A DNA stretch of 64,000 nucleotides. It comes from Hydractinia symbiolongicarpus. Taxonomy: Eukaryota > Cnidaria > Hydrozoa > Anthoathecata > Hydractiniidae. The translations under genes were made by a program, and so were the position numbers. Below the pieces are notes generated by a model. The model worked only from the letters and a program-made list of their open reading frames with translations. It searched no databases and had not been told where the DNA came from. This document shows, piece after piece, positions 19,401-59,444 of the stretch (position 1 is its first letter; each line of letters opens with the position of its first letter). The stretch is taken from assembly GCF_029227915.1 (NCBI RefSeq), contig NC_079877.1, positions 9,114,001-9,178,000 on the forward strand. The letters run 5' to 3'.

Positions 19401-22400
19401 GGTGTTGTGGAAGTCGTATCCTGAACTCACCTCCTGCAACACTACTTATGGTGAGAATAACAATTATTGTTCATTAATGTACCTTGCATCTTTTTTAAAA
19501 AATTCTAGCTCTTGTTCATTCCATTTTTCTAAACTTTTGTCTAGCTGAATATAAATGTGAATATCATGTAAAGAGAAGAAAACTTGAAAAAATTTTGTGC
19601 TTTTTAACCTTAAAATAACTGCATTTTTGGCAGCTAATCACCTCTGGTTTATTAAATTAATTTTGTATGCTTACAAGCTTTGAAATAACAAGGTTGGTAG
19701 ACAAAGTCAAAATTATTAGGAGAGGTTTGTTGACCCAATATTTGCCTTATACTTACATCGTAATGCCCTTTTATAGGTTGTACTGAAAGTATTTGTTCAA
19801 GTGATCATTCTCCAGTGTTTGCTACATTTGACGTAGGTGTTTTATCTCAGACGCTTGCTGCTTCAAGTCACGAAGGTAAGTTTGGAAAGTTTGTCATGTC
19901 ACTTGCCTCAAATATGTGTATTAGAAAATGGAGTATTAGAATTTGGAGAAGCGGTATTGATTGAAAGAAAGGTGAAATAGGCAGTAAGGTTTTGAAGATA
20001 ATTAAAGTGAGCTAGTTTGACAGCATTTATTTACAAATGTATTAAAGTCAATTGTATTGTTTGTTTACTTTGTTGTGATTTATTGTTGTTTATTTACAAC
20101 AAACAAAGATGCCATTTTAATTTTTTTTTTCATGTTTGAAATAAACACCACTGGTAGCCCTTAATCCTGATACCTGTCTTTACACTAAAGAAACTTTATA
20201 AGAGCCATACAATATATTTATTACCATCATTCATTACCATCATTTATTACCATTATTTATTACCATCATTTATTACCATCATTTGTTACCAATATAATCT
20301 TCATGTTCTCTGATTATTATAGGTTTTACTTTTTTTATTTACCCTATGCCTACAAAACTTTATTATAGATCACACAGATAGTGGCATGATCAAAGCGCTT
20401 AAGATTGTTTTCTTCTCTGCAGAGGCTAAGGTACATACAATAGCAATAATGTTTTAAGGGTTACTAAATAATGCATCTTCAGTAGTGATTGGTAACACCT
20501 TATTCATTAAAATTATGTTAACGTAATAAAAAAAATCCTAGTTTCTTTTACATGTTTTCTTCACTCTCTCTTTTACACAGTTGCCAATGCTGTCAATTTA
20601 GAACTCAATGTCACCCGTATTATACACAAGAGAATTATATAAAAAAAACACACAATGCGAAAGTATGATATCAGTTCTGTAAAATTGATGTGACCCCAGC
20701 CTTTGTCTATTTGCTTCTTGGGGATTTTCCCTGAGGAATGGATTGCTCACAAAGTCACTTTTTATGTTTAGATACTAACAAGTAGCGGCACAAAATTTAT
20801 GTTAGAATTTCATTCCAACTGCCTAGAAAGTATGTTTGTATATTATGCAATTTAAAATTTATGTTCATCTCTATGTTAGTAATTGTATTTTAGAAGTTCT
20901 TGAACTGTGGTAAAAAAATTTTAAACCTTTAGAGCGTGTTATAACTAAAAAGAATTCCTACACAAATTGCAGAAGGCAGACAGATAGTCTTTTTAGAGGT
21001 TCTATTCCTTCTGATCACAAAACATATTCCTATCCCTGGTGGACAAAAACAGATTTGGTTGATGTAAGGTTTTGTATTTGTTTTAAAAGACTACCTTCAG
21101 CTTATTTAACTTTTAACAAAGTGTTTAATTTTTTTTTGTATCGCTTAGCTTCATCCTGTGTTGTCTGACTTATGTTATCTTGAAGATCAACACTTGCTTG
21201 TTGCTGTTAAAGGGGAGGATGGCCAGGAGTATTATGGTATAAATATTTGTCTTATTAAAAGTGTGGTTATTTTCCCCATTAATATTACCAAAACTGGTTA
21301 TAAATTGCAAAAGGGAAATTCCCAAATAATGCTGACATCATCAAAAATCAACACCTGCGCAATCGCACGCTATTGAGAATCGGGAAATTCCCAAATAATG
21401 CTGACATCATTAAAAATCAACGCTTGCGCAATCGCACGCTATTGAGAATCGGGAAATTCCCAAATAATGCTGGCATCATCAAAAATCGACCCATGCGCAT
21501 TTGAGTAGGGGAAATTCCTTATTCAAAGCTATGACAGCGCTAGAAATTCTTGGTTGAAGCTTGCATGTAATAAAGAGAAATGAGTTGGTTTAAAAATCGA
21601 TTTGGTACACAAGAAATGTGCACTAGGGCGGCTCAGGAGAATTCCTTGCTACTCAAGGATGTTCCGGACCATCTCAAGACCAAGGAAATGTGCACCAGGG
21701 CTGTTGAGCGTCACTCGCGGCTGCTCGAGGTTGTCCCAGACCATTTAAAGACCCAGGAAATGTGCACTAGGGCGGTTCAAGAGTACCCTTGGTTACTCAA
21801 GTTTATTCCGGATCATCTCCTGACCCAGGAAATATGGACCAGAGAGGTTGAGGAGGAACTCCGGATACTCGAGATTGTTCCATATCGTTTCAAGACCCAG
21901 GAATGTGCGCTAGAGCTGTCGGACTGAGACCTTTGCTACTAGAATATGTCCCAGAGCATTTCAGATCTCAGGAAATGTTCCCCTGTGGGTCCACGTAGGA
22001 GTTGGTTTAGTATAAGGGTAGGGAGATCACTGGTTATCTTACAACCCTCGGGTTGTAAGATAAATGGAACACTGCGATGAATGTGAACGCATACTCGATG
22101 GGTACGACAGATCTCCTGCTGACGAAGATTCTTCATAAGAGCTAAGCTACTCTGCTGGTCCTGCTACCAGGAGTACATCACATAAAATGGTGGTAGTTGG
22201 GATTGCGCAACGATATAGAAAAACCCTTGTTGGGGTTTTGTCTCTACAATAAAGAAGATGTTGATTAAATTTGGAGACAAGACTATAAAATCCGAAGACT
22301 TTTACACCAACTCAAAACCGCTAAACATTGAAGAAGTGCAAGTCGAAAACAAAGTTGTGTAAAAAAAGTTGTGCTGAGCAACTCTATCCCAGACAATAAG

Positions 22401-25400
22401 GCGAATGATGAACGCTTCGAGATTGGTTATCAGGACCAAGACGGCAGCCTAGCACCGCTACTGCTCAAGACCCCTGAAAAGATTCGCTCCAAGGGTGTCT
22501 CTCAATACAGCGAAGGTTCCGCGCTAACTATGTCATTTGATCTGGCCAGCTATCCCGAGTGGCTAGATCAATACGAGGAGATGTTGAACAAGGTGAATTC
22601 TTTGGAAGGGTATCGCTTAACCAACGGCGGCGTAAAAAAAGGGCGGTACTTCAGCACCAAGTTGAAGAAATGGGATGGGGAGGTCAGAACCAAATTCCAC
22701 AAGAAGAAGATACCACGGGAAGCCGTGAGTGTAAGGCTATCATCAAACTAGCCAGCATCTACATGCAAGGTTCAAACTACTATCTACAGACCTACCTAGA
22801 AGAGTGTAAATTTGAGAGGCACAGCGCTTACTACTTTAGCGACTCCGATGACGATACGATCGACAGCTTCACTGTATTGTAAGTGGCTTGTCAAGGTTCT
22901 ATGGTTGTCTTCAGCCATAGAAACAAACATGAACGTTCCTGCACTGAAAAAGGAAGCAAAAGCACTACACGTTCCTCACTACCCCACAATGAACAAAGCC
23001 CCTCTTCTCGAGGCGATCCGCAAAGCCAAGTACTAGGACGTCTCAATGCAAACGGACGGCCCCTATTGCGAAAAATCGGCAGAAAAAATGGCAGAAAAAT
23101 CTCGAACAATGCCTGAGAGAGCTCGCTGAAAAGCAGCAAAGAGTCATACATGACTGTGGTCTTATCATCGATCAAGACACGGGAGAAGTACTCGAGATCG
23201 AGTAGCAGGTAATCTAGTGTGTTGTTCAACACACTAAGCTCAAGAGATTACGAATACGCAGGCGGGGCTTCTAAGTACCACTGACATACTGTGCATATTG
23301 CAGTTTTTTAAAGAGTTCATCTTTGGCTTCTTACCTGCCTTGTGCCACAAGCTGCTGACGCTCATTCTCGTTGATGGAATTCACAGCCCTTTTTGTTCGT
23401 AGTCGGATCTGCTCCTTGAGCACCATGTAATGTTGTTTTTTCTGGATGATCCACGTAAACTCATCGTTTGAAATTGTACCGTCTTGGATCGCTCTGTAGA
23501 TCTTATCGTAGACAGTGTCTAGCTTTGATTCAGCTAGGAGCTTGACGCACTCAAGCTTGCGCACTTTTGCGCCTATGTGTTTGGAAGCATTCTTCAAACC
23601 TACTTGCTCCATCCCTAAATTGCTATAGGGGCTCTGAATCCGGTTGCAAGCGTGGCAATACCTGCTAAGGAGGTGATGACAGTAACACAATCATGCCGTG
23701 ATCAGCATAGCGAAGCCCTATCCCCCAAAGCTTGAACTTTTTGTAGAGTTTTTCTCTCTCTTTGATCTCTTCTCGGAAGAACGCTTCGATCTCTTAGATC
23801 TTTTTTAACCAGTAGACCTGGCTTTCGTGGAAAGTATCATGCTCTTGCTCAGGCGCACTTGGCGGTAAAGTTGGTAAAGCTTCATAACATCAGTCATTTA
23901 TTCTATGAGCAGGTCCATCATAATTCCCACGAACGAAACGTTCTTATTGTGGTGATACTCGTCTGTCAGCATGAACTCGAGACGATCTGTCAAGCCCTTC
24001 AGGGGAAGGTACACAGGGTTATCGAAACTCCATGTAAGCATGTCTCCCCAGGCACAGCTCTTTGGTGGGAAGCACGACAAGAATTTTCGATTCCTTCCAA
24101 TCCAGTAGGCAATCATCTTCGTCCAGCTAAGGGCAAACGAGTCTCAGCCGCTGGTAGGCGTCAGTCTTGTAAAAGGAATCGTAGTCCCCCTTTGTGTAGA
24201 ACTTTTTCTGGGGATCGAAGGGTAGGCCCAAGAGCTTGTGTAGTGGTTCAAGCATGACGAGTGTGTACCCTTCGTTGACACAGAGTCTACAGAGTCCATT
24301 CTTCAGCACGAACAGCTGGATCTTACCCTGCGCTTGACTGTTGACGATAGTCACTAAAACCTTGTTCTTATAGAGACCATTCATGATCTCGATCCTCTGT
24401 AGCACATCCGTGGATCCTTCCATACGGATGGTGAAGTCAGCGTCGCTGTAGATGTTCAACCATGTAGGTCGAATGCTGATCGCCTTCAGAGCGATCCTAG
24501 TGTCCTGCCCTAGGTAGTACTTGAATATTGTGAGGTTCTCTATATCTGTGACGTAGAGTTGTCTCATGTTTCTTTAAAGAAACATGAGCATTTACTTGTA
24601 CAACCCGAAGGCAAAGTACGCGCCCAACCACGAAAGATATGTGGAGAGGCTTAAGGGGGATGACCTTTCAGTGTAGAGCATCGTCATTGACGCAAAGGGG
24701 TCCTCGTTCAAGGTGAAATTTTCAGACATCTTTGAATTCCACTCAGGTACAGCAGTGAAGGAGTGGCAGAGCCACCCTTTCAGTCTCCCCTTTCAGTCTT
24801 TGGTCTACCCAGCTCAATTTTGCCGTCTTTTGTGCAACATCCGCTTGTGGTATTTCTATGCAGCATTTACAATCCTCTTTGCCTCTAGTTCGTGCTGTCT
24901 ACAGCTTCCACGTCTACTTCCAGATACGCAATATTCTAGCAGAGCTTGCGTCCCTCTACCGGGCTCCGACAGGTTCCGACGTCTCAACAACCCCTTCAAC
25001 AAGCAAAAGTTCCACCAACTAGCTCGTGAGTTTGGAATAAGCGACAGCAAGCAGGAGTGGAGGAACGAGACCCTCTTTAGTAGCTGGCAACTTCATTGCT
25101 CGGACTATTCTGGCTCGGGCCCTAGCTATCTTGACGAGGTATCTTGGAGCCGGTGGATCCTGGAAAAATCCCAAGGTCCCACTCGTATAGCTCTCAAACA
25201 GCTCTCCCAAAGCGTACGTTTCTACGCATACCTCATCATCGAGAGTCAAGCGAACGCGAGATCTGGCATCATTGGAAACCAAGGCAGCACTATCGATGCA
25301 CAGCGTCTCTACCTGACGACCTTTGAAGAGCTGATCATCAGACCTACCGACACAAGTAAGGAGATCTGCGAGTTCTTAGACGTGCTCAAGTATGCGTGGT

Positions 25401-28400
25401 CCGAGGTTGATTTCAGCGTTGCTCATGGCGTCTATATGATCCCGAGTGACATGAGCCTTCACATTGGAAGTGTCGTGAAATTCACGAACAAGATACTCAT
25501 CAGCAAGGACTATTTTTCCATTGGTCTTAACCCGAGGATTTACACTAGCACACGCAGTAGCAAGTCGACTAAACATGAAGCACCAAGGCAAGAAAAGGGG
25601 GTAGCCGGCGACTACCCCCTTGGAAAGGGTGGGATGCGTTTGCCACACCCCCTTCGTAAAGATCAAAAGCATGATGATCACCTTGCCCGTCAGGACAGAG
25701 TCGCAGGTGATGCAGCTCAGCATGATGACACCAAGACCACATTGATTACGGGGGAGTAGGGCTAATCCTTGCCTACATCTGGCTGAAGAAATAGGTGTAG
25801 TGTGTTTTGTCAACATACTAGAGTCTTCGCCACCACTATCTTCTACGATGGTTGCTTCCTCCCCTCCCAACGTACGTCACAACAACAGTAACGACAGCAG
25901 CGATGGCCATGTAGACGTGCTGGGCAGCATGTGACGACTTTCGCCGCAACTCTAAAGAAGAATGAGACGACCGTACCAATGATCCCTGGTAAAGCAGCAC
26001 CTGCCTTAGCCGCAAGATACTTTAAAAATCTCCCGAGTCTTTCCAGCTGCTTCTCTACAAAACCCTTCCCCCTCCACTTACTCCGGCTGTGCCCGCTCCT
26101 CCATCACCTCCAGTAACTGCAAGGACGATGGTGGATATGAGCAAGCCAACAGCCAAGACGATGCTTGTGATAGTGATCCCCTGCTCCTTGAATATGATCT
26201 TGAGTTTTTCGGCCAAAGTTTTATCATCTCCAGCGATCTTCATCAGAGTCTCCTTGATGTGTAGCAGTTGACTCTGGGTGTTGGAGGATAGTAGGCTGTG
26301 TGCTTTTAGTGCTTCTTCCTTCAGATCATGGAGTCCCTCTAGCTCTTCCTTCGCTTTCGTTATGTCTTTATCCCAGATAGCTATCTGTTCCTCAGATGCT
26401 CCGGGGCCGGCTTTCTTCGCCTCAAGCCCGTTGATCTTATCCTTCGCTTTGTCTATCTCACTATCGTAGAAGATCATTTTACCTTTCAAGTGCTTGAGGT
26501 TACCCCTTAGCGTTTGTAGTTCGCTATTGAACCCTCTTCTCTCACGCTCTGTAATCTCATCCCCGCCAAAGGAAGTATCTTCAATAAGACTCCTTGTTTC
26601 ATCGAGACCATTCCTGAGTACTGGCAGCATCTCGATATCATCGCTCCTTGATCCGTGCTGCTTCCATTTGACAAGAACGTTCTGGATCCTCTGGATCCTT
26701 GCCTTGAATTTATTACCCGGTGTTTGATATTTATGAAAACCTAAGACCCTCAGACGCGTATGTCCTAAGTCCGTCTCTATAGTCGTAAGCACTATTTCCT
26801 TATAGGTTCTACCCCCCACGCTACCTCCCTAAAAAGCTTTTTACCCTCATCGGCCCTAAAATAATGATACTTTTTTATCGGTTGACGTTCGCTAAGTTTA
26901 TTATAAAGATCGTCGATGGTTTTTGTCTAAATTCTATTCCCCCAGCCCCACATCCAATCGCCTGCGTGCACCTCCCTGCTGCTGAACCGGCTGCTCTTCG
27001 GGCGTAGTGCTGGGCTCTGGAAAATCCCCAGGTCTACTAAAAGTTTCATCATCATCCCAATCTGGAATGTCTACCCCTGACGTAAAGTCCCCTTCATATA
27101 TTGGATTAATCAGCATTTATTCCACCCGGAAGTCCCTACTAATAAAACTATGAGTTTTGGAACTAAGCTAGATCCGCACAAGTGATAAAATGATGCTAGC
27201 AATGAAAGGAAAGAAGCAGTGTGTCAAGGCCTCCCATGTCCCCAGTACGATCAACCAGAAGAAAGACCTGTACGTTGACGTACCAAACATGGGACAGAAT
27301 GATGTCATTTTTCCTGGCTCTCTCAAACTCCTCTTTGACCTGGAGCTTACTGGCGCAAACACCAAACACAATCGTCAGCAACATCGGCAATGCCCTGGTG
27401 CAGAATCTTCGGATCTCGTTGCACAGCAACGAGGTTCAGAATATCAGCGACTACAATGTACTCGCCGTCTACCAGGACCTGTGACTGCCCAAGTATGCTT
27501 GCAAGAACAACCTAATTCTGGAGGGTATTAACCAGAATGGCACCATTCGCGTCCTACATGTAAAAGGGAGCACATGTAGGCAATAATGAAGAAAAGGCAA
27601 TCGTGGCAACCTATGGCAACACCTTTTGCATCCCCCTCGGCAAGATGTTTGAGTTGACGGCAGATCTACCCCTATACCAGGCAGGACTCCACAACAGGCT
27701 GCAGTTCGTACTGCACTTTGCACAGCACAGCGACGTGATTAATGACTCTGGCACGGCAGCCTCAGGGTCTACCGCAGCTAAACCAGCTGACGCCGCTTTT
27801 AAGATCACCAACATTGCCCTGGAATTTGACAAGGTGGACCACGAGGGTCTCGCAAGTGCTATAATGTCACGATACTCGAGGCTGGTCCTGCCCTATGAGA
27901 GGATACTCAGCTCCAAGGTGGTGACCATGAAAAAGGCTGACACCAGTTACAACCTCCAGATTGATACTCCTGCTAAGTCTTTAAAGGGCGTCTTACTGTT
28001 CTTCGTAGACCCTGGAAAAATCAAGGCCTACAGTGGAGTCAAAGAGGTCTTCTACAATCCAAAGATCGAGAAAATCTCAATCATGGTGGAAGGTGAGCCA
28101 AATGAACTGTATAGCCACGCCATGCTACCCAAGGACCATCTCGAACAAGCCGCGAACCTCTTTGGTAGCCCTGACTCGGAGGTGACCATCGGGCAGTTGT
28201 TCACGGAAAGATATGCGCTGTTTGCCCCCTGGTGCCCCACTATTTCAGACCGGGATAGGGTGGTGTCACCCCCGATATTTCCTTTGCAGTAGCTGCCTCA
28301 GGTCACTCCAAAATCTTACAAGTTCGAGGGTGCTCAAGCCTCACGTGCAAGCAAGCGTGCTTGGACTTTTTCAGCTCAGCTTTGATAATGGATAATATTG

Positions 28401-31400
28401 ATAATCTTCTTATATCTTTGTGTTAGCAGCCACAAGCTATGTCTTCTGTGTCTACCCGAAACAGCTAGTTCTAGCAACGCCCCACAAGTTTTATCGAGAG
28501 ATTCGTCGGCGATCATATCATCAACTATGAAGAGGGTCTCCTCACCCGCCAGCAATGACGTCCGTTTTTGGATCCACTCGAACAGCTGCTCATTGGGCTC
28601 TATAAGGAAGACATAAGGATCTTGCCATAGTGAGGATCTAGTGAGGTAGGTGGCATTCTATCGGATCGTGGTGCAGAGCGCGACTACGTTGTTGAAGTGC
28701 CCTTTGTATTCTTTCTCCAGAAGGTCGAAGACTCGCTGGGTCTTGCCGCAGATTGTAGGCCCAGTAAAAATTGCTGTATGTGGCTTCTTGACAATGTCTA
28801 GCATTTACTCTAAGACTTTTTGTGTGTGTCCTGGGGCACAGGGGTGCCCCAGGGCACACACATTAAGTCACAAGACTTGAAGAAATCACTTCTTTTTTAC
28901 ATCAAGATGGAGGGATAGACCCTGTTCCTCATGGATTTTCATGGTCTCTTTTATCCCCTTGAGTATAGCCTTGGGAGTGTTTAAATCTCTCTCGAAGTAT
29001 CTCAATAACTCCCCAAACGTCATGGTTTTTTTCTTTGGTGGAGCTATTCCAAGCTTCCCCTTTTGGCGGTTCCATTCGGCAAGTCTCTTACCTGTCGCAA
29101 CCCTTCCCGGGTGCTTTTTGTGTACTTCAACAATTTTTTCCACGGCCTCGGGTTGCTGTTGATTGATGATAATACTACACGCGCTGCTCATCTTTTTATT
29201 GCTGTTCATCATCTCGCTTTTCATCTATCTTGGAGACATGCTTCGCAGAAAGCTGAGTGTGGTTAATGGTATGAGCAGCGAGTAACAGTGGTGCTAGAAA
29301 TTTCCCGAAGGCTGAGTACACGACGATTCCCAGGTCGGCCATGGAGTCTTAAATGATGGGTTCCTACTCGATGTCTTGCCTCAGACCCTCGGCACTGCCG
29401 ATTGAAACTACATTGCCTACATCCTTGGCGCAAATGCTGATAGCGTGTGAGGAGAGGGCCTTTGCTGTCTTCTCCTCCTTTTCATGAATCTCACGTTGAA
29501 CGAACTCTGTATAAGTTTTCTCGAGCACCTCAGGTGGGTACATTTCTTAGGCACGATTTTTGACGATTTCAGCATTATTTGGGATTTTCCCCATTCTCAA
29601 TCGCGTTCGATTGCGCATGCGTTGAATTTTGATGATGTCAGCATTATTTGGGAATTTCCCTTTTGCAATTTATAACCAGCTTTTTTAAAAAACCGGTTAT
29701 AAGGACCCCCTACTACTACTTTACCGACCTTTATCAAAGTTTTTGTTGTAATGAAATTGTTCTTCACTTTCACTTTCAGGAGAATGTGTCATATCAATGA
29801 AAATGTTTCTGTCCGGCAATCCAAAGGTCTTTGAGGTCATGATAACACATTTGGGAGTGGAAACGGGTGTTTTAAAGTATGTTACTGCAGTTTAGATTCA
29901 ACCCTGTTGATTCTTAGCCCTGTTAAAATTTTTATGTGCTGTTTCACTTGTGTTACATCTGTTGTAGTTGTATCAACCTGAGTATGTTTTGTGATCATCT
30001 AGGGTGGAAGCTCAGTTAATTATTCCAAGTACCATAGAATACACAGCATCTCAAAAATCTAAAGTTTATGGTTTGTTGATTTATTTTTCACTCTTCTTAT
30101 GGTTGTTAAAAAATATATTAAAATACTTGTTTCTTGACTGCACTGTTAATGTCAGTGTGTCTTGGCATATTAATTAAAAGTTTCAGAATTGTTTGTTTAC
30201 ATTATTTGTTTTAGATCTCATTAAGGTGGAAGAGGAAGGTAACATTTCATTTTATTTTATTTACTTTTTCCTACCTGATTTTCTGGTTTAAATAAAGAAA
30301 CGTCACCATAGTATGAGTAAATGTTATTATGAGTACAATATACACAATGGTGTCAGTAGGCATTGGTAACAAACAAAATATAATGTTCCTAAGAACAAAC
30401 TATCTGAAACAGTGTTTTTGAAAATTCTCCTCAGAGTTCTTCAAATCCCCTCTAAATTTAGAATTTTTAAAAACTTTTTCCTCAAAACTAAATGTTAAAA
30501 TACATAGAAATGATACCATGGGTACAGCAGAAACAAAAATTTATTCTTTACTCATAACATTAGCTTCAAAATCTCCTTGTGGAAAATATGAAGATGTCCT
30601 CAATTGTCCTTAAATTTAAAAAAATATTCTCATCAAAAGCCCTCCAATCTCATAAAATTGACTATGTAAAATGTGTGGCAACCCAAAGTAGAGGCAGATA
30701 TAAAGTTTTTTAAATCTTCTGGTTTGATTAAAACAAAATTTAACATTAGTTGATTAAAGTAAATAGTTTGTGGTTTATAGAAGCTATCTGTGAAACATGT
30801 TAAATGAACTGATTTGTTTAGATTCTCGACCAAATACTAAAAAATGTGGAGAGAAGAAAGGTGAGGGTAGAACGATAGTGCCATAATGTTTAATTTACTA
30901 TTTTATGTTTATACAACTGTGTTAAATTATAAATGAAGCATTTCGATTGACATTTCAGATTTTAGATGCAGGTGCACATTATAAAACAACTGCATTTGTG
31001 TAATAAACATACTGTAATCTTTTTTGCTATAAAGTGACTGAAAATTCACTAAAAACCAGTTTATAAATCCTTACAATAGGCAACAACTGTATTTAAGTTT
31101 ATTAGCTTCCTTAAGCAACATTAAGGAAACGTGTATTTGGAGAATTTGAAGAAGGTTGACAAAAATTGATTTCCTAATGTCACCAATCTTTTTTTCATTG
31201 TCGCATAGAAATGTATTTGGTCAATTTACCTGTAAAAAAAGAAGATATAGATCAAATAGATCCAGTTGACAAGAAGGTAGAACCTCCTACAGACAATGAA
31301 GAAAGACCAATAAGTATGGGGTTTGATAATCCTTGTGTAAAATATACCAAGCTTGATGACAGTACTGATGAATGTAGGTGTTCTTCTTCAACAGTTTTGT

Positions 31401-48000: not shown

Positions 48001-51000
48001 ACCTTGGTGGGATCACTCAAGTAAAATTTACAGATGATGGTTTATACCTATTTAGTGGTGGAAGAAAGGTAAAGTATGGTTTTTTCTAAAATGTGTAATT
48101 GTTGTACGACAGCGTCAAGAAAACATTGCTTTGTAAATTTCTTTTAGAATTCAAAACTAAGTCCGTTTAAAAGTTTCAAACTGTGTCCCAAAAGAAATTA
48201 AATTAAAAATAATTTTTTGAGGAAACATATCTTTTATTAAATACTCATTGAGAACCTTCGCTATTCCTTCTTCGAAAAACCTTATAAACTCATTTCTATC
48301 CGACCATTTTATAATATTGACTTTTTTAGTGTTGTGGTTGGACGGTTTGTTAACCCTATTCAGTCCGGGGGGGCGGATTCCGCCCCCCCCTGACGGTTTT
48401 TTTTAATAACTCCTGATTGCTTTCCTATATAGCTATGATAATTAGTGAGTTTCAACATTTATCTATTAGACACCTGCATGCTAAATTTTTAGGTCCTATA
48501 CCTTTCAGAGGCTTTGATATTGGCCATTACTCGAAACTACCCCTAAAATCTCTATGAAATCCTTATAATGGGAAAAATATAATAACTCCTGTTAGGATTA
48601 TCCTTAGAACTTGAAACTTGCAACACAACTTTGTTTCATCAAGAAGAATCATTTTGAATAATTTTGACACGTGACTAATCCGATTTCCCGATTTTATCAG
48701 ATTTTACTCGAAAATCAGAAAAAAACGGATTTTCGGGCAATTTTTGGCAATTTTTTATCTGATCCATGTAAAAACCGGAAGATATGTTAAAAAAATTTAT
48801 TTAGTTTTCAAAAACTTCAAACAGAATGTAAAAATTCACTCTAGAACAAAAGTAATTATATTTTAAGTAGATAGTTGCATTTTTAACAATTTTCAAGCTT
48901 CTGATGACGTCACAGAAAATGTGCTGTAGCAAGCAAAAATTTATTGCTGCCATTTTGTTCCTTTTATGACGTAATTTAAGTGTGCCAAGTTAGATTCAAT
49001 TTGAACAATCCTATAAAAAGTTATTGAGGGGGGGGGGGGGCGGAATCAGGCTCCCCCCGGTCATAGTATGTTCGAAAAACCCCGGACCGAATAGGGTTAA
49101 GTGCGATAACAAATGCAACAATTTGACATCTTAGCAGAGATCAGTATAATTGAAACTTCTTGATTCTCCAATTCTTATTCTGATCGTATTTCAACTTTTG
49201 AATTCAATCAAATATAATCCGAAATCATGCAATTTTTCTTGACATTTTCCATCAGCAATGAAAGTAGCTGTGAACCGAGAAAGACCCTTGATATATGATG
49301 CTACTACTAAAATCTAACCACTAACTATGTGGTTAAAATAGAAGTAAACCATGCTAAGTTACTACAGAAGAGGAAAGTAAAAATGTGAATCAATTTCCTG
49401 TTATATTTGCGGCATGAAAAAACACAACCTTAAATCCCTTACAGACCATTTCTACTGCAAAACATTGTACAACTCCAACTTCTCGGTCTTTTGTCTTTCA
49501 ATATGATTTTTTTTATAGGACACTGAACTTATTTGTTGGGATATGAGGAACACGACGATGCCTTTGTTTAAACTCCTTCGTGCAGTCAATACAAATCAAA
49601 GAATACAATTTGATATAGACAGGTGAATTGAGTAGAAGCTTCCCTGATTTATTTTCTTTGATGTACTGAAGATTTTTTTTTTTTTGACAGAATGTGGATA
49701 GAATATTTGCTATTCTCACTAAAAAAATTTGATAACAGAGGATAAAAAGTTTAACAACCATACAGTAATTAAATAACCTGCTACAACGGTTTTTTGATTA
49801 TGTTGTCGTTAATCTTTGTTCGGAAGCGAAGCTCGTATCAGAAATACAAAATTAAAAGGGATTTGATGCCATCAAAACAGGACTTTCTGAAACCTAAACG
49901 ATGCTAATTTTAAAAATAACAAATATCAAATCATATCAAATTTTTCCAAGAGTATAATTTTGAAGAAGCATAAGGAAGGATATCTTTTCCTTTTAAAATT
50001 GATATTTGATAAATTTTTTTATCTCTTTACTTTGCAGATGTGGTTGTCACGTTGTGAGCGGTGATAGCAACAATGTGATAAATGTATGGGATTTGAACGA
50101 CATTTTCGACAATATCACCGATGACGTAATATCTCATCAACCTACTCATCAATATGTTGCTCATGAAGATGCAGTCAATGCTGCGAGGTAAACGTGTTTT
50201 TATTTATGTTGTATATGTAAGCAAAGTATTCGAGTTTAAAATGAAAATACTGAATCATACTTCTTGGGTTCAGCCTTGTGACGTTCAGATCCTATAATAA
50301 TGTCCTTACAGTGTTTTTAAAAACTGTTAGTAATTTAGAAGGGTAGATAAAATAGACATTTTTTTCAAAAGCATAACGCTTATAAGCATTATCAGTCTCA
50401 AATAATCTTTTATATGACTTAATTAACACCATTACAATATCTGAACTTGGCCTTGTGTCCTTACACCCTCGATTTTGTGGCTGTTCTTTTTAATATAAAA
50501 AAGGACCCTTTTTACCCATATAGCTCATAGGAAACGTTTAAATTTTTAATTTGTTTATTCGATAAGGATAATGTAAGCATACTCTAAACCTGATTGTGTT
50601 TTTCGCATAAATGAGGAATGAGGAATTTATGAAATTTTGTCGCTAAGAAGTGATCAATTTATATACTACAGACAAAACCTTTTTCGTTTAACAGTCATTG
50701 CCGAAATTTGAAACAAAATGGCCGTCACCAAATGGACGCCAGCAACGATTGACACACCAATTTTCATACACTAATTTTTATACACCAATTTCATACACCA
50801 CAAATTCTTAAAGATTTAGTTCTTTTATGCAATCGTTTCCATGCTCACAAATAGGAATATATACGCGAGGAATATATAAATGTAAAGGAATAATAATGAT
50901 TATACTAATTGAAAAGATTCCTGAAGTTATAGTATTAATCAACACGGAAGTGTCTTGTAAGATATATAAGCTCCCCTTACTCTCGAGTGCGAAACGCTAT

Positions 51001-51465
51001 TCCGTTGTACCGAAAGTATGGATTTAAACAAATAGCCTAAGATCATCAGTGGCGATCATTGACAAGTTCAAAATGCACATTGTATGCCTATGTAAATTCT
51101 TGTGACGGCGAACTCCGAAGTGAGCTGTATTGTTCCCTCGTGTTTTATCGTCCATTGTTGTAGTTCTACTTGGAATTATCAGAGGAACGAAAGGTGTAGC
51201 TGTTTCTCTTGTTGTCATATTTCATGAAATAATAGTTACAACTACTTTACACCTACGCCAAATATACAGTACTATTCAAAGTTCGCTACTAAACTATAAT
51301 AACAAGCTTTTTTTATATCATAGCTTACACCCAACTAAATCTCTGCTGGCTACAACATCTGGTCAACGTCATTTTATCGTCGACGATTCTGATTCAGATT
51401 CTATGGAAACAGACAATAAAACTATACATAATTTTGATAATTCATTAAGAATTTGGAGCATTTAG
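38661..51465 (+). CDS. WRAP53: WRAP53/TCAB1-like WD40 protein with an N-terminal CtIP/Sae2-like zinc module
   Basis: Exons: 38661-38711, 38881-39076, 39169-41311, 43339-43440, 44350-44449, 44823-44911, 45755-45845, 46204-46336, 46468-46491, 46925-47032, 47938-48068, 49519-49622, 50038-50187, 51324-51465; phases agree and the sum is 1,187 residues. The C-terminal 400 residues are a WRAP53 WD40 propeller: [103 protein letters not shown]53 binds CAB-box RNAs and telomerase RNA in Cajal bodies and is also recruited to double-strand breaks. Human WRAP53 has 548 residues; the extra length is a 714-codon disordered exon plus the zinc module. The donor at 41311 overlaps an alternative stop (TAG 41313-41315), so two separate genes remain possible. 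Confidence 0.88.
39169..41311 (+). other. Large disordered exon with two SUMO-interaction-like motifs
   Basis: One 2,143-bp exon, Ser/Thr/Asn-rich and charged, without repeats. At about 39868-39960 it encodes [12 protein letters not shown] and then [14 protein letters not shown], two hydrophobic-acidic motifs of the SIM type. Near 40830 is a more ordered stretch [15 protein letters not shown]. Disordered, phosphorylatable arms are typical of DNA-repair scaffolds such as CtIP, and WRAP53 also has a short one. Confidence 0.65.
41544..43221. mobile_element. 1.68-kb insertion flanked by about 40-bp direct repeats
   Basis: The sequence aacaatgatattaatgtaca then taatttattcattctctga ends at 41543 and recurs at 43221-43259. 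Between them lies DNA starting ctagctgaatacccgtggga and ending in a cacacacacgcaaac run. The direct repeats look like a long target-site duplication. The start resembles the short repeats at 15541 and 18575. No coding frame. A retrotransposition product is likely; the family is not assigned. Confidence 0.65.
45075..45180 (+). other. Possible retroelement fragment in a WRAP53 intron
   Basis: One frame reads [20 protein letters not shown], which recalls the short Gly-Arg-Pro ... W-x-Q-V-V segment seen downstream of reverse transcriptases in some LINEs. It is too short to assign. It is not part of WRAP53, whose flanking exons join directly. Confidence 0.25.
46511..46572. repeat. gaat tetranucleotide microsatellite
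   Basis: An imperfect (gaat)n run of about 60 bp lies in the WRAP53 intron between exons 46491 and 46925. Confidence 0.85.
48354..49096. mobile_element. 743-bp TTAA MITE with G-rich hairpin ends
   Basis: The ends are ccctattcagtccgggg and its partner ccccggaccgaataggg, flanked by TTAA at 48350-48353 and 49097-49100. Next to the left end ggggggg-cgg pairs perfectly with ccg-ccccccc (48367-48389). The right end has a run of 13 G. No coding capacity. It lies in the WRAP53 intron before exon 49519, and its right repeat is the left breakpoint of the tandem duplication. Confidence 0.85.
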
Positions 51466-51719
51466 TATTTTTTAGTTTAAGAAAAGAGAAAACTTTTTCT
51501 TTTGTGTTTTAACTGTAAATGTTTTATGACATTATCACCTAATTTTGTATCCACCTCGAGGGAGAAAGTGTGTTTGAATCAACCTTACAATTTCGACTGC
51601 CTGTTGTGTGGACTCATTCAGAAAGTAGATACTCTTCAAAACTAGTTTTAATATCAGATGAACACTTTTTACCAGATGTATTATCAACGGTGACAAAAAC
51701 CTGTGACCATTTTTAATCT

Positions 51720-52260
51720 CGGTCCACCGAGTCCTTGCGTTTCAGATTAGATCTTGTGCAAATTCTTGTATAGGTGTGCGATCTTCCTTCACGTTGCATC
51801 CAGTGCTTCTCTATTATATTGGTTCGATGCAGGAATTTACGGGCTATTTTTCGGCTTGTTTTTCGTGTCTCATATGCGTTCCATCCTGATGTCAAAAAAT
51901 ATATTTGAAACCACTTTGTATGTATGTGTGTATGTGTGTATGGATGGATGGAGGGATGGAGGGATGGAGGGATGGAGGGATGGATGGATGGATGGTTTTT
52001 AACACTGTCTTTTGTTGTCGCATGTTCAAGACAACATTCATGTAGGTTCCGGTCTGTTTTACCGATGTAAATATTTGAACAACCAGGACAACAAAAACGG
52101 TATACTAAATTTGACTCGTTTTATCTTTGTTACTCGTGAAATAACTGATTTTTGTTGTAGAATAAGTTAGTTTCAGGATAAGTTTCACATTTCGACGGAC
52201 ATACCTCCGCAATTTCCTTTCTAAAGATCAAACTAAGTGTTGACTTTGACCGCCAAAGTA
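51720..52260 (-). pseudogene. Penelope-like element relic with a GIY-YIG nuclease motif, copy A
   Basis: On the minus strand at about 52008-52115 one frame reads [20 protein letters not shown] followed by [13 protein letters not shown]. The CCPGC block before YIG and the later EHA block fit the GIY-YIG endonuclease of Penelope-like retroelements. Upstream (52120-52220) RYVRRNVKLILKLTYSTTKI fits the linker between reverse transcriptase and nuclease. The C-terminal part continues at 51720-51895. Several frameshifts and a minisatellite interrupt it. Confidence 0.7.
51930..51993. repeat. ggatggatggag minisatellite, copy A
   Basis: A gtatgtgt run leads into a ggat/ggag 4-8-bp repeat of about 60 bp inside the Penelope-like relic. 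Copy B is at 56969-57032. Confidence 0.85.
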
Positions 52261-52506
52261 AGTCTTAATCCTTTAAAAAACCCTTGTCGCTCACAAGTTG
52301 ATTTTGTTGCCCAAAATTGAAGCCATTCAACAAGTTTGTTACCCAGACAAACACGATCCCATGCCCTGTTGGGTTTTTTATTTATACAAGGAGGAAAGCG
52401 TAAGGCTTTGTGATAACAATAATTATCAGTCTATCTTCTGCATAAGAAGAAAAAAAAAAGATTTTTTTTTAAATTTGATGAATCAATATTTTTTTCCTCT
52501 TTCGTT

Positions 52507-52548
52507 ATTATTATTATTATTATTATTATTGTTATTATTATTATTATG
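52507..52548. repeat. (att)n microsatellite at the LINE 3' end, copy A
   Basis: About 13 att units lie just below the end of the minus-strand LINE; on the LINE strand they read as an (aat)n tail. Such short tandem tails are usual at the 3' end of CR1/L2-like LINEs. Copy B is at 57546-57587. Confidence 0.8.
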
Positions 52549-54120
52549 AATGTTTATACAGGATGGATATAATTCAGTTTTTAAAAAACTGCTCTTAATA
52601 TATGTCCTGTGAAAAATAAAATTATAAAATATTATTATTATATAACAGTTAAAAACATGAGTTAAAAATACTAGCTTTACAATAAAGCATAAAATAATTT
52701 ATTACAGGTTAAAATAGCTTTTAGTTTTTCTTACGAAACTTGGTAAAGTATCCGAATTTCGATTGGCAAGTCATTATAAATCTTTGATCCCATAAATTTA
52801 AAACCAGATCTATTTACTTCAAGTCTCACTCTAGGTATTGTCAGTAAGTAATTGTTGTTTCGGGTGTTTCTACTGTGCGATCTTTTCTCGAAGAAATCTT
52901 CAAAATTGCTACACACTGCTTTTTCCAAGCATTTTCTGACGAGCATGACAGCATGTTTCTTTATTTTATTCATAATTGGTACTTGACGTTTCTCTGTCAC
53001 CTTCGCAATTCTTCTATCAAGCGATTGAAGCTTATTTTGCTGGCCGTTGGTAAGATTCAGGTTTGTAGTGCTGCAGTAAAGAAGTGTTGGCAGCAGCATT
53101 CCGACATATATTTTAGTGATGGCATTGTTCGTTAAGTTGGATTTCAATGAGAGTAGTAAACGAAGCTTAGTAGACATTTTCTTGTAAAGACTTATAAAGT
53201 GATGGTTCATTGACAAAGTCTGGTCGAGAACAGTCCCAAGATATCGATATTCGGTGGTTGCGTTAATTAGCTTTCCGTTGATTTCCAAGTTCAAGGTTGA
53301 TCCGTTTTTATTCAAATTTTTGCGAGTGCCGAATATCATCGATTCGGTTTTTCCATCCTTCAGATTTAATACAAGTTCGTTTTCAATGAAGTATCTGTCT
53401 ACGTTTTTCAATTCAGCGTTGAAAGCGATCTCAAGTTGCTGGCTTGTTTTTCGTCCAATGTATAACACGGTATCGTCCGCAAAGTTTAGTACTCTAAAAT
53501 GTTTCAAACAATTTTCGAAATCATTGAAGTAGATTAAAAAGAGACAGGGTCCAAGAATGGACCCCTGTGGTACACCACAAACAATGGGGTTGGGCAACCA
53601 GTTTAGTGACAAACCTTTGACTCCATAACTTCTTACTTTTTGACAGGAGAATGGAGTGGCTTAAAGTATCGAAAGCCTTCGACAGGTCAACGTAAAGCGC
53701 ACCTGTTAAATTTCCTTTGTCCATCTCCTTCCTGATTTCCTCTGTCAGATAGAGTTTGGCTAATTCGGAAGATCGTTTCTTGCTGTATCCGTATTGGTTG
53801 GGTGTTAAAATTTCATTTTCTTCAAGATAGTTCACAAGTTGAACATAAACAGCTCTCTCCATTATTTTAGATTTGACCGGTAGGATGGAGATCGGTCGAT
53901 AGTTTGACATTTCGTCCATTTTCCCACCCTTGTGGAGTGGGATGACTTTCGCCAACTTCCATTCAGTTGGTATGGTGGCTGTTTTTAGCGACAAGTTGAT
54001 GATGAACGATAAGGGACTTCATAACGCTGTGGCTCCGTCTTTCAAAAGTCCTGATGGTATTTGGTCATAACCTGTAGCTTTCTTGCGCTGCAACTTCTTC
54101 AGCTGACTTTCAACAAATAC
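52549..54120 (-). pseudogene. LINE reverse transcriptase, copy A, 5'-truncated by the duplication
   Basis: Two minus-strand frames, 53521-53994 (SNYRPISILPVKSKIMERAV; SKAFDTLSHSILL) and 52731-53612 (CGVPQGSILGPCLF; NFADDTVLY), together make a non-LTR reverse transcriptase. They are joined by a frameshift near 53610. The catalytic box is FADD as in many LINEs. The copy ends at 54120 where the duplication junction cuts it. Confidence 0.9.
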
Positions 54121-54557
54121 CCGGACCGAATAGGGTTAAGTGCGATAACAAATGCAACAATTTGACATCTTAGCAGAGATCAGTATAATTGAAACTTCTT
54201 GATTCTCCAATTCTTATTCTGATCGTATTTCAACTTTTGAATTCAATCAAATATAATCCGAAATCATGCAATTTTTCTTGACATTTTCCATCAGCAATGA
54301 AAGTAGCTGTGAACCGAGAAAGACCCTTGATATATGATGCTACTACTAAAATCTAACCACTAACTATGTGGTTAAAATAGAAGTAAACCATGCTAAGTTA
54401 CTACAGAAGAGGAAAGTAAAAATGTGAATCAATTTCCTGTTATATTTGCGGCATGAAAAAACACAACCTTAAATCCCTTACAGACCATTTCTACTGCAAA
54501 ACATTGTACAACTCCAACTTCTCGGTCTTTTGTCTTTCAATATGATTTTTTTTATAG

Positions 54558-56504
54558 GACACTGAACTTATTTGTTGGGATATGAGGAACACGACGATGC
54601 CTTTGTTTAAACTCCTTCGTGCAGTCAATACAAATCAAAGAATACAATTTGATATAGACAGGTGAATTGAGTAGAAGCTTCCCTGATTTATTTTCTTTGA
54701 TGTACTGAAGATTTTTTTTTTTTTGACAGAATGTGGATAGAATATTTGCTATTCTCACTAAAAAAATTTGATAACAGAGGATAAAAAGTTTAACAACCAT
54801 ACAGTAATTAAATAACCTGCTACAACGGTTTTTTGATTATGTTGTCGTTAATCTTTGTTCGGAAGCGAAGCTCGTATCAGAAATACAAAATTAAAAGGGA
54901 TTTGATGCCATCAAAACAGGACTTTCTGAAACCTAAACGATGCTAATTTTAAAAATAACAAATATCAAATCATATCAAATTTTTCCAAGAGTATAATTTT
55001 GAAGAAGCATAAGGAAGGATATCTTTTCCTTTTAAAATTGATATTTGATAAATTTTTTTATCTCTTTACTTTGCAGATGTGGTTGTCACGTTGTGAGCGG
55101 TGATAGCAACAATGTGATAAATGTATGGGATTTGAACGACATTTTCGACAATATCACCGATGACGTAATATCTCATCAACCTACTCATCAATATGTTGCT
55201 CATGAAGATGCAGTCAATGCTGCGAGGTAAACGTGTTTTTATTTATGTTGTATATGTAAGCAAAGTATTCGAGTTTAAAATGAAAATACTGAATCATACT
55301 TCTTGGGTTCAGCCTTGTGACGTTCAGATCCTATAATAATGTCCTTACAGTGTTTTTAAAAACTGTTAGTAATTTAGAAGGGTAGATAAAATAGACATTT
55401 TTTTCAAAAGCATAACGCTTATAAGCATTATCAGTCTCAAATAATCTTTTATATGACTTAATTAACACCATTACAATATCTGAACTTGGCCTTGTGTCCT
55501 TACACCCTCGATTTTGTGGCTGTTCTTTTTAATATAAAAAAGGACCCTTTTTACCCATATAGCTCATAGGAAACGTTTAAATTTTTAATTTGTTTATTCG
55601 ATAAGGATAATGTAAGCATACTCTAAACCTGATTGTGTTTTTCGCATAAATGAGGAATGAGGAATTTATGAAATTTTGTCGCTAAGAAGTGATCAATTTA
55701 TATACTACAGACAAAACCTTTTTCGTTTAACAGTCATTGCCGAAATTTGAAACAAAATGGCCGTCACCAAATGGACGCCAGCAACGATTGACACACCAAT
55801 TTTCATACACTAATTTTTATACACCAATTTCATACACCACAAATTCTTAAAGATTTAGTTCTTTTATGCAATCGTTTCCATGCTCACAAATAGGAATATA
55901 TACGCGAGGAATATATAAATGTAAAGGAATAATAATGATTATACTAATTGAAAAGATTCCTGAAGTTATAGTATTAATCAACACGGAAGTGTCTTGTAAG
56001 ATATATAAGCTCCCCTTACTCTCGAGTGCGAAACGCTATTCCGTTGTACCGAAAGTATGGATTTAAACAAATAGCCTAAGATCATCAGTGGCGATCATTG
56101 ACAAGTTCAAAATGCACATTGTATGCCTATGTAAATTCTTGTGACGGCGAACTCCGAAGTGAGCTGTATTGTTCCCTCGTGTTTTATCGTCCATTGTTGT
56201 AGTTCTACTTGGAATTATCAGAGGAACGAAAGGTGTAGCTGTTTCTCTTGTTGTCATATTTCATGAAATAATAGTTACAACTACTTTACACCTACGCCAA
56301 ATATACAGTACTATTCAAAGTTCGCTACTAAACTATAATAACAAGCTTTTTTTATATCATAGCTTACACCCAACTAAATCTCTGCTGGCTACAACATCTG
56401 GTCAACGTCATTTTATCGTCGACGATTCTGATTCAGATTCTATGGAAACAGACAATAAAACTATACATAATTTTGATAATTCATTAAGAATTTGGAGCAT
56501 TTAG
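54558..56504 (+). pseudogene. Duplicated last three exons of WRAP53
   Basis: Exact copies of exons 49519-49622, 50038-50187 and 51324-51465 lie at 54558-54661, 55077-55226 and 56363-56504, with intact splice sites and stop. They have no promoter or first exons and so cannot make the protein alone. They could serve as alternative 3' exons only if the true stop at 51465 is skipped by splicing. Confidence 0.9.
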
Positions 56505-56758
56505 TATTTTTTAGTTTAAGAAAAGAGAAAACTTTTTCTTTTGTGTTTTAACTGTAAATGTTTTATGACATTATCACCTAATTTTGTATCCACCTCGAGG
56601 GAGAAAGTGTGTTTGAATCAACCTTACAATTTCGACTGCCTGTTGTGTGGACTCATTCAGAAAGTAGATACTCTTCAAAACTAGTTTTAATATCAGATGA
56701 ACACTTTTTACCAGATGTATTATCAACGGTGACAAAAACCTGTGACCATTTTTAATCT

Positions 56759-57299
56759 CGGTCCACCGAGTCCTTGCGTTTCAGATTAGATCTTGTGCAA
56801 ATTCTTGTATAGGTGTGCGATCTTCCTTCACGTTGCATCCAGTGCTTCTCTATTATATTGGTTCGATGCAGGAATTTACGGGCTATTTTTCGGCTTGTTT
56901 TTCGTGTCTCATATGCGTTCCATCCTGATGTCAAAAAATATATTTGAAACCACTTTGTATGTATGTGTGTATGTGTGTATGGATGGATGGAGGGATGGAG
57001 GGATGGAGGGATGGAGGGATGGATGGATGGATGGTTTTTAACACTGTCTTTTGTTGTCGCATGTTCAAGACAACATTCATGTAGGTTCCGGTCTGTTTTA
57101 CCGATGTAAATATTTGAACAACCAGGACAACAAAAACGGTATACTAAATTTGACTCGTTTTATCTTTGTTACTCGTGAAATAACTGATTTTTGTTGTAGA
57201 ATAAGTTAGTTTCAGGATAAGTTTCACATTTCGACGGACATACCTCCGCAATTTCCTTTCTAAAGATCAAACTAAGTGTTGACTTTGACCGCCAAAGTA
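56759..57299 (-). pseudogene. Penelope-like element relic, copy B
   Basis: The duplicate of the relic at 51720-52260, carried along by the 5,039-bp tandem duplication. Confidence 0.7.
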
Positions 57300-57769
57300 A
57301 GTCTTAATCCTTTAAAAAACCCTTGTCGCTCACAAGTTGATTTTGTTGCCCAAAATTGAAGCCATTCAACAAGTTTGTTACCCAGACAAACACGATCCCA
57401 TACCCTGTTGGGTTTTTTATTTATACAAGGAGGAAAGCGTAAGGCTTTGTGATAACAATAATTATCAGTCTATCTTCTGCATAAGAAGAAAAAAAAAAGA
57501 TTTTTTTTTAAATTTGATGAATCAATATTTTTTTCCTCTTTCGTTATTATTATTATTATTATTATTATTGTTATTATTATTATTATGAATGTTTATACAG
57601 GATGGATATAATTCAGTTTTTAAAAAACTGCTCTTAATATATGTCCTGTGAAAAATAAAATTATAAAATATTATTATTATATAACAGTTAAAAACATGAG
57701 TTAAAAATACTAGCTTTACAATAAAGCATAAAATAATTTATTACAGGTTAAAATAGCTTTTAGTTTTTC

Positions 57770-59033
57770 TTACGAAACTTGGTAAAGTATCCGAATTTCG
57801 ATTGGCAAGTCATTATAAATCTTTGATCCCATAAATTTAAAACCAGATCTATTTACTTCAAGTCTCACTCTAGGTATTGTCAGTAAGTAATTGTTGTTTC
57901 GGGTGTTTCTACTGTGCGATCTTTTCTCGAAGAAATCTTCAAAATTGCTACACACTGCTTTTTCCAAGCATTTTCTGACGAGCATGACAGCATGTTTCTT
58001 TATTTTATTCATAATTGGTACTTGACGTTTCTCTGTCACCTTCGCAATTCTTCTATCAAGCGATTGAAGCTTATTTTGCTGGCCGTTGGTAAGATTCAGG
58101 TTTGTAGTGCTGCAGTAAAGAAGTGTTGGCAGCAGCATTCCGACATATATTTTAGTGATGGCATTGTTCGTTAAGTTGGATTTCAATGAGAGTAGTAAAC
58201 GAAGCTTAGTAGACATTTTCTTGTAAAGACTTATAAAGTGATGGTTCATTGACAAAGTCTGGTCGAGAACAGTCCCAAGATATCGATATTCGGTGGTTGC
58301 GTTAATTAGCTTTCCGTTGATTTCCAAGTTCAAGGTTGATCCGTTTTTATTCAAATTTTTGCGAGTGCCGAATATCATCGATTCGGTTTTTCCATCCTTC
58401 AGATTTAATACAAGTTCGTTTTCAATGAAGTATCTGTCTACGTTTTTCAATTCAGCGTTGAAAGCGATCTCAAGTTGCTGGCTTGTTTTTCGTCCAATGT
58501 ATAACACGGTATCGTCCGCAAAGTTTAGTACTCTAAAATGTTTCAAACAATTTTCGAAATCATTGAAGTAGATTAAAAAGAGACAGGGTCCAAGAATGGA
58601 CCCCTGTGGTACACCACAAACAATGGGGTTGGGCAACCAGTTTAGTGACAAACCTTTGACTCCATAACTTCTTACTTTTTGACAGGAGAATGGAGTGGCT
58701 TAAAGTATCGAAAGCCTTCGACAGGTCAACGTAAAGCGCACCTGTTAAATTTCCTTTGTCCATCTCCTTCCTGATTTCCTCTGTCAGATAGAGTTTGGCT
58801 AATTCGGAAGATCGTTTCTTGCTGTATCCGTATTGGTTGGGTGTTAAAATTTCATTTTCTTCAAGATAGTTCACAAGTTGAACATAAACAGCTCTCTCCA
58901 TTATTTTAGATTTGACCGGTAGGATGGAGATCGGTCGATAGTTTGACATTTCGTCCATTTTCCCACCCTTGTGGAGTGGGATGACTTTCGCCAACTTCCA
59001 TTCAGTTGGTATGGTGGCTGTTTTTAGCGACAA
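57770..59033 (-). pseudogene. LINE reverse transcriptase, copy B
   Basis: Same two frames as in copy A: 58560-59033 and 57770-58651, overlapping in different frames at a shift near 58640. Motifs RPISILP, AFDTLSHSILL, GVPQGSILGP, FADDTVLYIG and the thumb region YRYLGTVLDQTLSMNHH are present. Confidence 0.9.
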
Positions 59034-59444
59034 GTTGATGATGAACGATAAGGGACTTCATAACGCTGTGGCTCCGTCTTTCAAAAGTCCTGATGGTATT
59101 TGGTCATAACCTGTAGCTTTCTTGCGCTGCAACTTCTTCAGCTGACTTTCAACAAATACATTTGAAACGTAAGTGAATGCAAAAACAGTATTCGTATTTT
59201 CATTCACTTGACTTGGCTTACTCCATATAAATTCCTTCATTGGCAGTGCAAGAGATTTAAGTTTATTTGCACATGTGGAAAAATATGAACAAAAACTACC
59301 AGCTTTTGTTAAGTTTTCTGCAGCCGATGTACATGTTCCATTGTTTTCCGACTTCCCTTTTGTTGGAAAAATGCTTTTAATAATTTTCTTTAGGTTTTTA
59401 TAAAGACTCCTATCAGCACTGTTGCCTGATTTTCGTGCCTTCCT

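Follow-up and report, generated by a model that had tools for sequence, protein, structure and literature searches.

What is an 8.4-kb block of virus-like genes without a recognizable polymerase or integrase: a compact virus lineage, or the remains of a larger element? This question is raised by a stretch of 64,000 nucleotides of Hydractinia symbiolongicarpus (the window, C3:9114001-9178000 of the 480.9-Mb genome; coordinates without a prefix are window positions), in which such a block lies between two SHIP exons. The original prediction proposed that it might belong to a compact Polinton-like-virus lineage of cnidarians, set apart from classical Polintons by its lack of a DNA polymerase, an integrase and a protease. 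Our analysis of the window copy and of its relatives in the same genome indicates, with high confidence, that the element is the decayed, internally deleted relic of a Polinton (Maverick) in a SHIP intron. It is a known kind of element, and not a new compact virus lineage.

Results

A GC-rich block with inverted ends nearly fills a SHIP intron

The 8.4-kb block of higher GC content with inverted ends, as described in the original prediction, was confirmed by three features. First, its borders are formed by terminal inverted repeats (TIRs) at 21290-21418 (left, plus strand) and 29555-29683 (right, minus strand), which are 91.5% identical over 129 nt; a second measurement placed the arms at 21285-21418 and 29555-29688, with 90% identity. 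The arms contain 69-bp tandem units, and on the left side the array extends to about 21499. A 30-base piece of this unit occurred five times in the window (≤3 mismatches; mean of 0.00 in shuffled sequences), four times inside the arms and once at 21451, where the tandem array continues past the left arm. Second, the GC content of windows inside the block was about 0.41-0.51, versus 0.28-0.36 in its flanks (4 kb on the left, 2 kb on the right). Third, the block holds an excess of open frames: 14 of at least 100 amino acids were observed versus 5.3 expected from 200 Markov sequences, and three of at least 240 amino acids (the longest, of 360, 257 and 242) versus 0.025 expected.

The predicted location inside a SHIP intron is borne out by matches to the Pfam family C2_SHIP1-2_2nd on both sides of the element, with E values of 1.7e-9 (21149-21283) and 1.7e-6 (29755-29892). 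A GT..AG pair at 21237-29779, in phase 1 and with the frame kept, can be read from the sequence, so that the inferred donor GT at 21237 would end the 3′ part of one C2-domain exon (21149-21236, plus strand) and the inferred acceptor AG, ending at 29779, would precede the next (29780-29892, plus strand). The intron 21237-29779 would thus be spliced. The element occupies nearly all of it, and would presumably be removed together with the intron at splicing.

At and just outside the right border, at 29670-29702, there is a near-palindrome (TTATAACCAG..TTTTTTAAAAAA..CCGGTTATAA), in which part of the element's own terminus recurs in inverted orientation. A terminal hairpin or the joining of ends may have left it behind.

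The window copy carries broken capsid and packaging ATPase genes

The capsid role, predicted with a jelly-roll fold as its check, is supported. The putative major capsid gene (27172-28222, plus strand) is frame-broken and has lost its C-terminus; it was recognized by its homologues and by the fold matches of a relative, P0137, to which the window piece is 37% identical. The predicted model of P0137 is of low confidence (pLDDT 51), and it matches mainly double jelly-roll capsids: among the 50 solved-structure matches listed, 46 were double jelly-roll capsid or scaffold proteins, and among the 50 viral-library matches listed, 21 were named as capsids. This low-confidence model supports the view that the gene, although broken here, codes for a double jelly-roll major capsid protein. 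A search of the PDB by sequence with the capsid alignment A1 gave nothing below an E value of 0.68, no relative was confirmed among IMG/VR viral contigs queried with the capsid piece and with A1, and no match was found in phage records by tblastn. The number of capsid homologues at E≤1e-3 was 2904; the 120 listed all lie on 'ena' contigs, which points to a large expansion of the capsid family in those genomes.

The predicted A32-like ATPase, for which a match to an unrelated P-loop family had been the alternative, did match the A32 type. The gene and its 3′ neighbourhood lie at 28298-28840 (minus strand), and the Pfam family Pox_A32 was matched with an E value of 2.5e-4 and 21.0 bits, slightly below the curated cut-off of 22.8. 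The frame contains the motifs GPTICGKT and FIVDD, which we take to be Walker A and B, as well as an internal stop, and about 0.1 kb is missing near 28393-28404. The window copy therefore has the packaging ATPase that is looked for in a Polinton/Maverick, in a broken gene.

The absence of polymerase, integrase and protease noted in the original prediction also holds for the window copy: none of its 92 stop-to-stop pieces of ≥45 amino acids matched a Pfam family of polymerases, integrases or adenovirus-type proteases (E≤0.05). With its capsid and ATPase frames broken, and neither a polymerase nor an integrase recognizable, the window copy should not replicate or move alone. Decay is evident in the capsid pieces, which lie in different frames, in the stop within the ATPase, and in a penton candidate (see below) that is spread over two frames. 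The three longest frames exceed chance, as they would if the host had domesticated a capsid or ATPase locus and retained it for function. Nevertheless, the capsid is truncated and split over frames, and the ATPase has a stop and a missing part, which makes domestication extremely improbable.

Fuller relatives in the same genome are Polintons

A search of the genome with the TIR found 40 places, several of them as facing pairs. Seven elements were fetched by means of such pairs, and then five more with capsid and ATPase DNA. Six of the seven TIR-found elements were mapped for gene order, the seventh (C14) being a 3.1-kb fold-back. Five of the six (C1 10 kb, C12, C1 20 kb, C10 and C6) have a common order wherever the genes were found. 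In the sense of the window it reads: DUF4116 or other cargo, the conserved genes g2, g3 and g4, the penton candidate and a plus-strand gene; then a coiled-coil gene, the capsid, a small gene, the integrase, two genes and the ATPase; and finally two or three genes, the polymerase and the TIR. The element at C2:12.45 Mb is broken up by other sequence, and only ATPase, integrase and polymerase-type pieces were found in it. The set of missing genes varies between sibling copies.

The integrase of the siblings matched Pfam rve above its curated cut-off in pieces of C10 (1.8e-10) and C6 (1.7e-8); the assignment was extended to C12 and C2 by tblastn, as was that of the polymerase. For the latter, a piece from C1 matched DNA_pol_B_2 with an E value of 8.1e-6 and a PHROGs DNA polymerase with 9.4e-6, the better of two C12/C10 pieces matched DNA_pol_B_2 at 0.0021, and C10 carries the motifs DANNFYGCAM, MNLSVFGK and YMDTDS. 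The element at C12:13.09-13.11 Mb has 16.5 kb between its TIRs, with both integrase and polymerase inside, and that at C2:19.49-19.51 Mb has 16.9 kb and a second type of polymerase. These two bring together family-B polymerase, RVE integrase, ATPase and capsid genes within one TIR element of 15-20 kb. Among the five copies of the second set, taken from the 39 others found with ATPase or capsid DNA, integrase matches were present in all five and polymerase-type matches in four. The contrast with classical Polintons on which the original prediction relied is thus not supported, since relatives with a common gene order in this genome carry integrase and family-B polymerase sequences.

These relatives also bear on the proposal of a compact Polinton-like-virus lineage of cnidarians, in which polymerase, integrase and protease were never present or had been lost for good. 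In its favour, the window copy matches no profile of these three families, and other short relatives exist, namely C1 (10.2 kb) and C8 (11.4 kb). These short relatives, however, differ in which genes they lack, and the fuller relatives are collinear. The 10.2-kb C1 element has a polymerase and no integrase match.

Two derivatives deserve description in their own right. The 11.4-kb C8 element (C8:28545126-28556499; L031-L032) has an integrase match and no polymerase match, and its inverted ends are 769 bp long and include DUF4116 repeats on both sides. The C14 fold-back (C14:13592600-13596800; L016) belongs to the same repeat family as the window element and has arms of 1270 bp that are 98.8% identical and carry g2, g3 and part of g4.

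Deletions account for the missing genes

Deletion junctions in the window copy were placed where its nucleotide alignments with siblings stop and resume. At junction 1 (28223-28297), about 3.4 kb is missing relative to C10, comprising the capsid C-terminus, the integrase and neighbouring genes. Sibling alignments over the capsid stop at 28222-28223; if a 40-base match to C6 at 28242-28281 is counted, the junction shrinks to 28223-28241. At junction 2 (28841-28862), about 0.8 kb is missing relative to C6, and at junction 3 (29537-29554) about 4.3 kb, including the polymerase, relative to C10. In addition, the window copy has ∼11 bases near the ATPase end where a number of other copies have ∼115. 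The sum of 8.4, 3.4, 0.8 and 4.3 kb is ∼17 kb, which matches the length of the fuller siblings.

Of 592 candidates for junction 1, 40 were scored, the window copy included; none of the remaining 39 bridged the junction, and only two of them matched its capsid side. Junction 3 was likewise bridged by none of 39 others (40 of 174 candidates scored), all of which stop by 29536. The window copy lacks a recognizable polymerase and integrase because of its deletions, and junctions 1 and 3 are found in no other scored copy, so that it looks like a one-off relic and not like a lineage. The compact lineage has to face these copy-specific junctions, as well as the fact that the capsid gene itself is cut at junction 1, and we regard it as highly improbable.

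A second alternative is a non-autonomous deletion derivative that fuller Polintons copied and inserted in trans, in the manner of cut-down DNA transposons. Both TIRs are present, the genome holds fuller copies, and the C14 fold-back shows that short derivatives exist; furthermore, the deletions could predate a single insertion. On the other hand, neither junction 1 nor junction 3 recurred in the 39 other copies that each search scored from a larger set of candidates, and we consider this explanation improbable.

An internally deleted Polinton relic would have arisen as follows. A Polinton (Maverick) of H. symbiolongicarpus, with an ancestor of ∼17 kb that carried inverted ends, a DUF4116 cargo, capsid, integrase, packaging ATPase and family-B DNA polymerase genes, would have inserted into a short SHIP intron, probably by means of its own RVE integrase, as established Polinton biology suggests. 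About half of its length would have been lost through at least three internal deletions and a further small one close to the end of the ATPase, and frame breaks would have been gained. The deletions may have occurred before, during or after insertion.

Observations that weigh against the assignment

Several observations weigh against the assignment to the Polintons. Short target-site duplications are a feature of Polintons/Mavericks, and a search for one at the window copy gave none that was convincing; in the 10.2-kb C1 sibling, GAGAC, read by eye, flanks the element on both sides. The best DNA_pol_B_2 match reached 25.4 bits, slightly below the cut-off of 25.8, and the 542-amino acid polymerase piece of C10 had no Pfam, PHROGs or PDB match and was called from its motifs. 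The second polymerase type had no Pfam match either, and was called from its position, from adjacent weak matches to the first type (23-26%) and from one YMDTDS motif. No protease was recognized among 68 pieces of the siblings C12 and C10, with Peptidase_C5 absent from the families listed for them. The putative penton gene is a candidate by position and size. The searches for the deletions in other copies covered junctions 1 and 3, with part of the candidates scored in each.

The termini also weigh on this side. Three siblings start with AGAGATAG, or nearly so, unlike the terminus of the window copy. The one other examined copy with that terminus, C2:12.45 Mb, carries the second type of polymerase and is broken up by other sequence; its far end was not located.

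One structural block, two polymerase types and several termini

Whether other genomic copies end at the same borders had been proposed as a check on the element, and the answer was mixed: C2:12.45 Mb starts at the window terminal sequence, and other relatives end differently. The window terminus, AAAACTGGTTATAA..., is common to that one other examined copy only, and the arms of two further siblings start differently again, as far as they were aligned. Two polymerase types, 23-26% identical where aligned, lie behind one capsid-integrase-ATPase block, and separate L023-L030 and L017 from L009-L015 and L018-L021. A tentative but real possibility is that Hydractinia Polintons exchange replication modules, with one structural block, two polymerase lineages and several termini. 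The window relic, whose terminus is also that of a copy with the second polymerase type, may be one product of such exchange.

Arm divergence was 8.5% in the window copy, 5.8-6.8% in three other copies, 6.6% and 7.8% in two, and 1.2% in C14. We assign no age to the window copy, because there is no rate and the arms contain tandem units.

Other genes of the element and other features of the window

The predicted DUF4116 repeats were recovered at the left end of the element, where a gene on the plus strand (21574-21924) matched Pfam PF13475 with an E value of 2.3e-9; its frame is broken further on, and repeat units run beyond the stop. Genes with such repeats were seen at the left (non-polymerase) end of some of the Polintons, three of the six mapped and one of the five in the later set.

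Three conserved genes follow, recognized by tblastn at the 11 fetched sibling loci: g2 (22332-22748, plus strand; 31-71% identity, five loci), the small gene g3 (22993-23202, plus strand; 60-76%, two loci) and g4 (23334-23690, minus strand; 36-74%, four loci). The penton (minor capsid) candidate occupies two frames at 23901-24573 (minus strand) and was named for its position and size; in sibling L011 (2940-3638) it is a single open frame of 233 amino acids. It had no significant Pfam or PDB match, the 28 candidates from a protein search all fell short of E≤1e-3, and folding the window piece from its single sequence gave a useless model (pLDDT 38), which was discarded. Nor did the candidate of L011 show any real similarity to P0151, in which a capsid is fused to an upstream stretch.

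The conserved gene with the 360-amino acid open frame lies at 24677-25756 on the plus strand, with tblastn scores to siblings of up to 386 bits versus up to 117 bits for the minus-strand frames there. The next gene, over two frames (25846-26828, minus strand), has tblastn matches to siblings and, read by eye, would code for a coiled-coil protein with a hydrophobic tail. Beyond the ATPase there are a conserved gene fragment (28889-29224, minus strand; tblastn matches to three of the 11 loci) and the remnant of the gene that adjoins the polymerase in siblings (29240-29536, minus strand), 75-80% identical in nucleotides to the 39 other scored copies.

Elsewhere in the window, 5,039 bp are tandemly duplicated at about 49081-54119 and 54120-59158. 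The two units are nearly identical: sampled 50-base stretches were the same, and the paired frames at 52277 and 57316 show one amino-acid difference. The duplication, which holds a reverse-transcriptase-like frame (52734-54018, by eye), could be recent or an assembly artefact.

Discussion

Comparison with known systems

A lineage should not be defined by the genes that a single endogenous copy lacks when fuller relatives are present elsewhere in the same genome. Deletions explain the absences that suggested a compact cnidarian lineage, and among the copies scored junctions 1 and 3 are specific to that of the window. A claimed new compact virus lineage is thereby removed, and a cnidarian laboratory model gains a many-copy Polinton family, some members of which are about full length. 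This family, in which two diverged polymerase types stand behind one structural gene block, is what can be reused.

Polinton-like viruses (PLVs) have capsid and ATPase genes and inverted ends without the Polinton-type polymerase and integrase. The window copy is like them in these features, and differs in that the absence accompanies copy-specific deletions.

Polintons are described as elements of 15-20 kb with a family-B polymerase, an RVE integrase, an FtsK-like ATPase and a double jelly-roll capsid, with an adenovirus-like cysteine protease gene in 74% of them (PMC4028283). The fuller siblings are alike, with polymerase, integrase, ATPase and capsid genes between inverted ends; the window copy differs, being 8.4 kb long and without a polymerase, an integrase or a recognizable protease, with its TIRs present. 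Hydra is among the hosts from which Polintons/Mavericks (polintoviruses) have been described (Krupovic et al. 2014, PMC4028283), and P1-HM is named in a legend (PMC11071308). Maverick is named in the repeat tallies of two papers (PMC13119343, PMC13327316), and among the papers searched none joins DUF4116 with a Polinton or a capsid, or Hydractinia with a Polinton. Cnidarian capsid genes are reported to lie outside the main Maverick-Polinton/adintovirus cluster (Bellas et al. 2023, PMC10120064), and the Hydractinia Polinton family may help to place them.

The adintoviruses and meldviruses are animal-associated and have integrase, PolB and capsid genes (Buck et al. 2024, PMC11071296). According to the same source, adintoviruses are defined by a hexon and a PolB that are recognizable to each other by BLASTp, and mixed pairings of capsid and polymerase lineages are also reported (PMC11071296). 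The Hydractinia family, with one structural block and two polymerase types, recalls such mixed pairings.

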